Shown here: positions 1,885 through 4,868 of the stretch, in pieces
Layout: every line of letters starts with the position of its first letter
Numbering within the stretch: position 1 is the stretch's first letter
Origin: Natrinema ejinorense
GTDB lineage: Archaea; Halobacteriota; Halobacteria; Halobacteriales; Natrialbaceae
Assembly (NCBI RefSeq): GCF_002494345.1
Contig: NZ_NXNI01000001.1
Span: 3,410,001-3,474,000 of the forward strand
DNA: 64,000 nt
Direction: 5' to 3'
Program-made: the position numbers and the translations under genes
The notes under the pieces: generated by a model
What the model saw: the letters and a program-made list of their open reading frames with translations, nothing else
Told to the model about the DNA's origin: nothing
Database searches by the model: none

Positions 1885-2688
1885 TCACACGCGCCGGGTC
1901 AAGTGTGCACGAACCGTCCGCTGACAGTCGCCACAGATCCCGTACAGTCGGGCCGCGCTCGAGAGCACCGGGTACTGTACGTCGAGGTCGGAATAAATAG
2001 CCGGTATCAGCGTTCGATGACGGGTTCCGCCTCGGCCGTATCGGTTCGTTGATTCGGTAAACTGGGCTTGTCGCTCCGCGGTGAGAGCGTCGAGTCGCTC
2101 CCGATACGCCTCGAGTTGCTCGTGTTTCGCCCGCAGTGTCTCGAAGTCACACTGCAGGAGGGATTCCGCGGCGGTCGACTGCAGCCAGCCGAGGATATCG
2201 TCGATGTCCTCGATTGCCCCTTCGAGCGTGGCCCGTTCGCTTCGCAGGGTTTCCCCCAGCAGCTCCACCTCCCGCTGTCTGGTCGTTATCTCCTCGAGGA
2301 CGGCCGTTTTGAGCGCTGGGGTCCAGCCGGTTTCCGTCGCGAGGGCGACGGCGATGTCCTCGGTCAACTCCGCTGCGATCGTCTCGACGAGCGACTCGTC
2401 GCCCGCACGGTCGGCGATACTGTGGGGGCGGACCGTTTCTGCGAACGCCGCTCGAACGGTGAGACACCGCTCCTCCGACGGGGTAGATTGCTGGGTCTGG
2501 ACCGGTGTCGCCATCGCTGTCGGCGTCGATCCGGTCGGCTGTTGTCGTTGCCCTCCGATGGGGCTCTCCGCTGGCACCTCCTGTACGCGCCGTTTGAACG
2601 TCTCGAAGGCGTCGCCTCGATCCGCAACCGCCTCCTGTTCCGTCTGGAGGCAATCGAGTGCGCGGTTGACCGCCGTCGATCCGGTCAT
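1885..2688 (-). CDS. DUF7260-like haloarchaeal protein with coiled coil and C-terminal CxxC
   Basis: The protein has 267 residues. The N-terminal half is Gln/Thr-rich. A long helical, probably coiled-coil section follows (about 120-215). The end is GICGDCQRTVRAHLTRRV, where a CxxC could bind a metal or sense redox state. It resembles haloarchaeal proteins labelled DUF7260, of unknown function. Its ATG overlaps the stop of the upstream gene by four bases, so the two are translated together. That unit starts behind two iron-box-like operators, which suggests an iron-linked role; this is inference. Confidence 0.6.
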   Translation of the reverse strand: MTGSTAVNRALDCLQTEQEAVADRGDAFETFKRRVQEVPAESPIGGQRQQPTGSTPTAMATPVQTQQSTPSEERCLTVRAAFAETVRPHSIADRAGDESLVETIAAELTEDIAVALATETGWTPALKTAVLEEITTRQREVELLGETLRSERATLEGAIEDIDDILGWLQSTAAESLLQCDFETLRAKHEQLEAYRERLDALTAERQAQFTESTNRYGRGGTRHRTLIPAIYSDLDVQYPVLSSAARLYGICGDCQRTVRAHLTRRV

Positions 2689-3614
2689 GGCCGTCCCTCC
2701 TGGGTACAGACGAGCCCACCCGTCGGCTCCGTGTCGCTCGTCAGGACGAACTGCCAGTCGCCGTCGCCGAGGGCGGTAACATCGGTCACGCTCAGTCGGT
2801 CCGTTGGGGCTGGCGATCGGCGCAGGATGTCGATCCCGATCGGCAGCGTCGGGAACCGCCGTTCGTCACACTCGATAGCGTACCCTCGGAGTGAGACCGT
2901 CCAGCGATCCCTGCCGCTCGTCCCGACCGAATCGTGTGCAATGCCGTACTCCCGTATCAACGACAGCGAATCCAGGAACGCGAGACTCTCCGAAACCGGG
3001 TCCGCCGCCGACTCGACCGGCGAGAGGTTCGCTGCTGCCGCCCCCAACAGCCGTGTTCGCTCCGCCGCAGTCAGGTGTGTCTCGAGTTCGGTTGCCATCG
3101 TCTCGAGCAACACCAGACAGAGCGTGTTCCGGTCGGTCGTCGCTTCGGCGGCGACCAGATACGTGTCCATGATGGCTCGCTCGGCTGCCTCGTGGTCGCG
3201 GGCCGAGAGCGACTCGAAGACCGCTCCCGAGACGTCGTGGCAGAAACTGATCAGGGGTGTGTCGGTCCCACGCTGTCGATCTCGGGGGACCGACGGCTGT
3301 CCCGTCGGTTCTGCGACCGGCCGATCCGAATCGGCGGCAGCGGTCGTCTCCGCCCCGCCGGGTGCGTTCGCGGATCGTTCCTGACAGACGACCGGATCGT
3401 AGAACGGCAACTGTGGATCGTACCGTCTGAGTGCGGCACGGTACTGTTCGGTTGCGTGTGCGGCGTCTGCTGCGTCCGTCCGGGTCGCGAACCGCTGGCC
3501 GGCGACCGGTACCGGCCGTTCACCGGAGCGAGCACAGACCACGTAGTACTCTCCGTCGTTGCTTGCCAGCCGTTCGATGTGGTGGCGGATCTCTCGAAGT
3601 GTGGTTCCGACCAT
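2685..3614 (-). CDS. DUF7551/DUF7552-like haloarchaeal protein, first gene of an iron-box unit
   Basis: The protein has 309 residues from the ATG at 3614. An in-frame start 15 codons further up is possible but adds a poorly structured leader. Residues 1-45 (MVGTTLREIRHHIERLASND and on, then a YYVVCARSGERPVP motif) form a small domain I associate with DUF7552. A Pro/Ala-rich linker follows. The rest is helical and then beta-rich, with no known catalytic residues. It is co-transcribed with the DUF7260-like gene. Two TTAGG-N4-CCTAA palindromes lie about 125-175 bases upstream, so a DtxR-type regulator probably controls it. Confidence 0.6.
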   Translation of the reverse strand: MVGTTLREIRHHIERLASNDGEYYVVCARSGERPVPVAGQRFATRTDAADAAHATEQYRAALRRYDPQLPFYDPVVCQERSANAPGGAETTAAADSDRPVAEPTGQPSVPRDRQRGTDTPLISFCHDVSGAVFESLSARDHEAAERAIMDTYLVAAEATTDRNTLCLVLLETMATELETHLTAAERTRLLGAAAANLSPVESAADPVSESLAFLDSLSLIREYGIAHDSVGTSGRDRWTVSLRGYAIECDERRFPTLPIGIDILRRSPAPTDRLSVTDVTALGDGDWQFVLTSDTEPTGGLVCTQEGRP

Positions 3615-3740
3615 GGGGGATTCCTCCAGTAGGGCCGTCTCGGTCCCGCGGGCGCTCACACGGACGTGGGAAACGTCTGCCGACGGCCACGCTCCCGTCT
3701 ATCGGCTCGTCCGCCCGCTGTGGGACCGATCGTTCACTCT

Positions 3741-3754
3741 TTAGGCTGACCTAA
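3741..3754. promoter_or_regulatory. DtxR/IdeR-type iron box, copy 1
   Basis: The sequence TTAGGCTGACCTAA is a perfect TTAGG-N4-CCTAA palindrome; one further T and A outside make it 16 bases. It matches the half-sites of the bacterial DtxR consensus and of archaeal DtxR/SirR-type regulators. It lies between the DUF7551 gene and a TATA-like tttatg on the minus strand (about 3758-3764), where bound repressor would block transcription. Confidence 0.65.
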
Positions 3755-3776
3755 AATGTCATAAACCCATCGGAAT

Positions 3777-3790
3777 TTAGGCGAACCTAA
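3777..3790. promoter_or_regulatory. DtxR/IdeR-type iron box, copy 2
   Basis: TTAGGCGAACCTAA has the same half-sites as copy 1, with centres exactly 36 bases apart. The pair brackets the putative minus-strand TATA box of the DUF7551/DUF7260 unit. No gene is seen on the plus strand until 4113. Confidence 0.65.
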
Positions 3791-4112: not shown

Positions 4113-4868
4113 ATGACCACTCAGATTCCGTTTGCAATCGACTTTCACGTCCATTCCGACGACTCCTACGATGGGCACGAACCGATCGAACTCATCCTCG
4201 AGCACGCCGCCGACATCGGCCTCGATGGGGTGGTCGTCACGGACCACGACGAGATCGACGAGTCCCGTCGGGCCGCCGACCTCGCCCCGGAGTACGGACT
4301 CGTCGGTATTCCGGGCGTCGAGGTCTCGACGCGACACGGTCACCTGCTGGCGATCGGGGTCGAAGAGCGGCCCGACCCCGGCCAGCCGTTCATGGAGACC
4401 GTCGAGATCGTCCGCGAACTGGGCGGCGTGGCGATCGTTCCACACCCGTTCCAGCGCAGTCGTCACGGGGTTCGAAAACGCTACATCGACGACGCCGACG
4501 CGATCGAGACCTACAACTCGATGGTCTTTACCGGCTACCGCAATCGACGCGCTCGCACGTTCGCTCGGCGACGGGACTATCCCCAGATCGGAGCCAGCGA
4601 CGCACACTACCTGCCCAACGTCGGCAAGGCCTACACCGAGGTCCTCGTGACGCCCGACACGGCGAACCCGACGAAAGCCGACATCGACGGCGCGGACCTC
4701 GTCGAGGCGATCCTCGAGGGCCGGACCCAGATCCGCGGCAAGCGAACGCCGATCCGCAAGAGCGCGGTGCAGTACGGAAAGGGTGCGGTACGGAAGACGG
4801 CGTACATGTTCACCTCGCGTGCGCCGCTCCTGCCGACGGTGCCGGCCTCGATGGATCGATCGACCTAA
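4113..4868 (+). CDS. PHP-domain metal-dependent phosphoesterase
   Basis: The 251-residue protein carries the PHP metal-binding set: DFHVHSDDSYD near residue 10, VVTDHDEID near 42, GVEVSTRHGH near 70, VPHPFQ near 110 and GASDAH near 160. These residues bind three metal ions in PHP phosphoesterases related to YciV/TrpH and the PolX PHP domain. The substrate cannot be read from the sequence. The C-terminal 50 residues are unusually basic for this genome and may contact nucleic acid or membrane. A second, different PHP protein lies at about 25.2-26.0 kb. Confidence 0.8.
   Translation: MTTQIPFAIDFHVHSDDSYDGHEPIELILEHAADIGLDGVVVTDHDEIDESRRAADLAPEYGLVGIPGVEVSTRHGHLLAIGVEERPDPGQPFMETVEIVRELGGVAIVPHPFQRSRHGVRKRYIDDADAIETYNSMVFTGYRNRRARTFARRRDYPQIGASDAHYLPNVGKAYTEVLVTPDTANPTKADIDGADLVEAILEGRTQIRGKRTPIRKSAVQYGKGAVRKTAYMFTSRAPLLPTVPASMDRST

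Follow-up and report, generated by a model that had tools for sequence, protein, structure and literature searches.

The two overlapping genes at 1885-3614 of the window (the whole 64,000-nucleotide stretch of Natrinema ejinorense DNA analysed here) very probably constitute an iron-starvation operon that is repressed by a DtxR-type regulator and belongs to the haloarchaeal iron regulon. This interpretation draws on the conservation of a palindromic box upstream of the pair, on the presence of the same box at iron genes and on the iron-gene neighbourhoods of the relatives. A previous sequence-only reading had suggested that the pair may be an undescribed part of the iron response, a view that is now backed by the conserved operator and by its recurrence at iron genes. 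With regard to function, the two proteins may tentatively be seen as a putative intracellular iron-handling module for ferric-siderophore uptake, and the proposal as a whole, an iron-starvation operon together with a cytoplasmic iron-handling module, is considered somewhat probable. The features involved are as follows.

3777-3790, no strand assigned: distal iron box, a perfect palindrome TTAGG-CGAA-CCTAA (TTAGGCGAACCTAA), its position kept in relatives
3760-3765, minus strand: predicted TATA-like element TTTATG between the boxes, read off the sequence and its relatives
3741-3754, no strand assigned: proximal iron box, a perfect palindrome TTAGG-CTGA-CCTAA (TTAGGCTGACCTAA)
3623-3627, minus strand: Shine-Dalgarno-like GGAGG, 8 nt before the gene 1 ATG, also found before the ATG in three other loci (L116, L118 and L120)
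2685-3614, minus strand: gene 1, a DUF7552 + DUF7551 protein of 309 aa that starts MVGTTL (open reading frame and Pfam)
3378-3602, minus strand: DUF7552 domain, residues 5-79 of gene 1, with the conserved Cys27
2700-3254, minus strand: DUF7551 domain, residues 121-305 of gene 1, with the conserved Cys125, His126, Glu134, Glu145, Glu157 and Cys166
1885-2688, minus strand: gene 2, a DUF7260 protein of 267 aa with an all-helical model (open reading frame, Pfam and AlphaFold2)
1924-1935, minus strand: the CxxC motif CGDC, residues 252-255 of gene 2, in the last helix and 12 residues before the protein end

The two palindromes, described earlier as perfect copies of TTAGG-N4-CCTAA 36 bases apart that bracket a minus-strand TATA-like box, are exact: they are spaced 36 bp from start to start with a gap of 22 bp, which on the minus strand reads ATTCCGATGGGTTTATGACATT and contains the TTTATG at 3765-3760. 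From the sequence, the proximal box is expected to lie across the transcription start or directly beside it. No other perfect match occurs in the window and none was found in 100 dinucleotide shuffles of it, while the reversed pattern, used as control, gave none in 983 kb of related loci, which rules out chance palindromes. A divergent PHP-domain gene at 4113 points away from the boxes at a distance of about 320 bp, and the palindromes might in principle be a property of that gene or be fortuitous. The probability of either is negligible, as the number expected by chance in the window is zero and the boxes accompany DUF7551 into many genera where the neighbours are other genes, and this conservation refutes an assignment of the boxes to the PHP gene.

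Conservation of the palindromes before orthologues had been set in advance as a test by which the iron interpretation could fail, and when run it showed gene 1 to be preceded by a box, or by two, in 26 of 30 loci of the family. Among 80 named haloarchaeal DUF7551 loci, covering 983 kb, 140 perfect boxes are present where the density in the N. ejinorense genome predicts about six, and at least one box lies within approximately 6 kb in 76 of them. For the 71 loci in which the DUF7551 start could be located, the box is direct (at most 350 bp from the start codon) in 44, at the head of a co-directional operon in 15, which brings the direct and operon-head cases to 59, and elsewhere in the locus in eight; in the other four no perfect box is found nearby. 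Many of the seemingly boxless loci carry co-directional binding-protein, FAD-reductase or methyltransferase genes upstream, often with a box at the operon head. The flanks and the N4 core of the boxes vary among relatives while the spacing around the TATA-like element is kept: 23 pairs of boxes are spaced 36 bp, five 35 bp and two 34 bp, with the TATA-like run enclosed, and at several single-box loci a degenerate copy persists at the corresponding distance. In many relatives the last base of the box is 1 nt upstream of the ATG, as would fit a leaderless transcript with the operator lying across its start. Taken from the sequences compared, this geometry around the promoter points to repression. 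When iron is plentiful, a DtxR-family repressor loaded with Fe(II) would occupy both palindromes in the region of the TATA element and transcription start and keep the genes off, and when iron falls its release would allow both proteins to be made by coupled translation.

The double iron box noted previously in front of this pair is indeed present but is not peculiar to it, as the N. ejinorense genome contains 26 perfect boxes (compared to two for the reversed pattern) and the double arrangement is seen at other iron genes too. Genes beside these boxes encode siderophore synthesis (IucA/IucC-FhuF and diaminobutyrate transaminase), transport (FecCD permeases, Peripla_BP_2 and other binding proteins, and an ABC ATPase), a ferritin-like Dps and one DtxR-family protein. 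Because the same box stands at siderophore, iron-ABC, Dps and DtxR-family genes, the name ‘iron box’ is well founded, and the motif is as expected for a DtxR-family iron operator. Its core, in the wider consensus TTTAGG-YNNR-CCTAAA, resembles the DtxR/IdeR half-site. Boxes were detected in all 59 genomes of the class sampled, ranging from 3 to 28 per genome, with a mean of 15.8 in genomes with DUF7551 and 7.6 in those without, figures not corrected for relatedness. Since three proteins of the N. ejinorense genome match Fe_dep_repr_C (the one adjoining a box additionally matches Fe_dep_repress), and DtxR-family members elsewhere sense manganese, the boxes could be read by a regulator of manganese or another metal and the pair could serve a non-iron response. 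This is very unlikely given that the same box accompanies siderophore-synthesis, FecCD, ferritin/Dps and ABC genes in this genome. In haloarchaea, the DtxR-family proteins Idr, SirR and TroR have been implicated in iron homeostasis (PMC11349517).

Two further genes of the same genome lie next to a perfect box. One encodes a DUF5059 lipoprotein-like orphan of 672 aa, its called start 67 nt past the box (contig C1, about 1475618-1477700; L051:2119-4204). The other is a FolC-dihydropteroate synthase fusion gene with the box approximately 120 bp upstream (C1 2520856; L054:2057-4202), an unexpected candidate target.

The open frame of gene 1 extends upstream to a GTG at 3659, although the conserved start is the ATG at 3614: a MVGTTL-like start is shared by all 35 aligned relatives, with M1, G3, T5 and L6 invariant, and together with the GGAGG located 8 nt upstream this identifies ATG 3614 as the start. 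Gene 1 and gene 2 overlap by ATGA (2685-2688), with the start of gene 2 inside the overlap, which is in line with the earlier description of two translationally coupled orphan genes; the unit is however longer than the 2685-3790 assigned to it, as gene 2 runs to 1885. Pfam recognises DUF7552 and DUF7551 in the first protein and DUF7260 in the second, all far above cut-off, and AlphaFold2 modelled the proteins with mean pLDDT values of 83.4 (whole gene 1 protein) and 84 (gene 2 protein). No match to a family of known function was obtained for either protein in the Pfam, sequence and structure searches. Conservation in the DUF7552/7551 proteins is concentrated at Cys27 and Cys125 (34 of 35 each) and at His126, Glu134, Glu145, Glu157 and Cys166 (35 of 35), while in 26 box-linked DUF7260 relatives Cys75, Cys252 and Cys255 are each retained in 25 and His189 in all. 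Cysteine is scarce in haloarchaeal proteins, so the conserved cysteines hint at metal or thiol chemistry, and the pattern of Cys, His and Glu suggests a metal or ferric-ligand site.

The second protein does end with a CxxC, as had been noticed, and this motif follows the iron boxes through the DUF7260 family. Of 34 DUF7260 proteins whose genes accompany DUF7551, 31 have it. High-scoring relatives (more than 300 bits against the box-linked profile) have boxes in nine of nine loci, including loci that do not contain an intact DUF7551 gene, and mostly carry the CxxC, whereas the low-scoring paralogues have neither boxes (none in 11 loci) nor CxxC. This split in both box and motif identifies the CxxC as a mark of the iron-linked branch, although a few members of that branch are devoid of it. 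The boxless, CxxC-less subfamily probably has a different function.

Outside the Natrinema-type arrangement, 45 of 67 loci contain iron-type genes within 6 kb of DUF7551 as identified by Pfam (binding-protein, ABC, FecCD, FAD-reductase, Dps and DtxR-family genes were counted), while none of these kinds was found within that distance in Natrinema and in 22 other loci. In Natrinema, the window included, the pair is a free-standing operon. In Halobacterium hubeiense pSTJ001 it adjoins binding proteins, an ATPase, an iron permease, an FAD oxidoreductase and a HEAT protein, and in Haladaptatus salinisoli an iron ABC operon faces it. The earlier statement that the genes resemble no iron-uptake gene thus stands for the sequences but missed this context, as the pair is situated inside iron-uptake clusters in many genera. 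For Haloferax mediterranei, an RNA-seq study reports joint repression of siderophore genes and of an iron ABC cluster made up of ATPase, permease and NAD(P)/FAD-dependent oxidoreductase (PMC11218638), which backs taking clusters of this kind for iron-uptake units under common control.

Other neighbours recur. A HEAT-repeat protein is encoded beside DUF7551 in haloarchaeal iron clusters at eight loci, in one of which (L090) its tail is zinc-ribbon-like (CPHCG...CPGCG), and at six the gene for an amphi-Trp domain protein immediately follows DUF7551 or lies close to it. In the window, a NifU-domain protein and a DUF5783 protein (456-866 and 903-1220) adjoin the pair; NifU is found near DUF7551 in other genera too (four loci), and a link to Fe-S is possible.

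DtxR-family genes are located within 6 kb of DUF7551 at nine loci, and nine loci have such a gene directly after DUF7551 or DUF7551-DUF7260, in several genera. Together with the stand-alone operons, which suit a general role better than a transporter-specific one, this gives rise to the main rival, in which the pair would act in regulation alongside the DtxR-family gene next to it: DUF7551 would sense a ligand or iron, possibly in the manner of an H-NOX or V4R domain, and with DUF7260 tune the DtxR-family repressor or another regulator in a feedback on the iron response. Also for this rival, comparison of the gene 1 model (residues 122-296) using VIA-align retrieved many H-NOX domains, which align over approximately 150 residues with Z of about 5-6.5, as well as the MopR/DmpR sensor domain with Z of about 5, values below 8 that unrelated folds can reach and that may represent a common arrangement. 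H-NOX and MopR/DmpR sensor domains belong to one structural superfamily. Against such a role, Foldseek gave no match with E ≤ 0.001 for the gene 1 model, none of the 35 DUF7552/7551 members has a Pfam V4R or HNOB match, and neither protein has a DNA-binding domain according to Pfam. The regulatory reading is, on balance, rather doubtful. The narrower idea that DUF7551 is a haloarchaeal V4R relative was rejected, its profile comparison having a probability of 0.1%. A search of the gene 1 sequence against solved structures gave no match, and the fold search with DUF7260 returned generic helical bundles only, none of them informative.

In the preferred reading, an iron-starvation operon with an iron-handling product, the two proteins would act together in the cytoplasm as a module accessory to ferric-siderophore uptake, a step held with lower confidence than the repression itself. 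Iron, or an imported iron chelate, would be bound by the conserved Cys, His and Glu of the DUF7551 domain. Its helical partner DUF7260, which carries the CxxC, would help to release that iron, pass it on or sense it. A more speculative and unlikely extension is that the pair constitutes a novel kind of two-protein iron device in archaea, produced under iron starvation. An H-NOX-like domain would there bind ferric siderophore, haem or iron via Cys, His and Glu, and the CxxC helical partner would transfer the iron or signal that it has arrived to the DtxR-family repressor, whose gene is adjacent in some genomes.

To our knowledge, the release, carriage and sensing of iron after import of ferric siderophores in haloarchaea are largely unknown. 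DUF7551 occurs in 218 of 391 sampled haloarchaeal genomes and DUF7260, paralogues included, in 320 of 391, and in the literature searched neither family is named or given a function. The papers on Haloferax TroR, the Halobacterium Idr network and DtxR-regulon comparisons (Leyn-Rodionov) may already list them as unnamed targets. Two widespread orphan families hereby gain a concrete and testable place in the haloarchaeal iron response, and since dozens of genera retain the box-linked arrangement, the pair has very probably gone unrecognised as a component of the archaeal response to low iron.

Compared to known systems, the pair does not correspond to a FhuF-type ferric-siderophore reductase: no FhuF match was found by Pfam for either protein, the C-terminal CC-x10-CxxC motif of the [2Fe-2S] site is absent, and DUF7260 has the CxxC alone with no upstream CC. 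H-NOX and V4R ligand-binding domains share with the gene 1 model the order of helices followed by sheet, at Z values that chance arrangements also give, and show no sequence relationship to DUF7551 by Pfam, by sequence search of the structure database or by profile. With FecCD-type siderophore/iron ABC clusters that include an NAD(P)/FAD-dependent oxidoreductase the likeness is one of position, the pair being embedded in them in many genera and free-standing in Natrinema, while Pfam identifies none of its proteins as a permease, ATPase, binding protein or reductase. The closest correspondence is to the DtxR-family iron regulons of haloarchaea (Idr1/Idr2 in Halobacterium; Idr, SirR and TroR in Haloferax; PMC11349517), in which a palindromic TTAGG-type operator likewise lies at the promoter. 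As in those regulons, one operator is common to the pair and to siderophore, ABC-importer, Dps and DtxR-family genes; it is placed at the promoter and conserved, and the genome encodes regulators of the family. Both the operator and the type of regulon are already known, and the pair joins a regulon of this known type.
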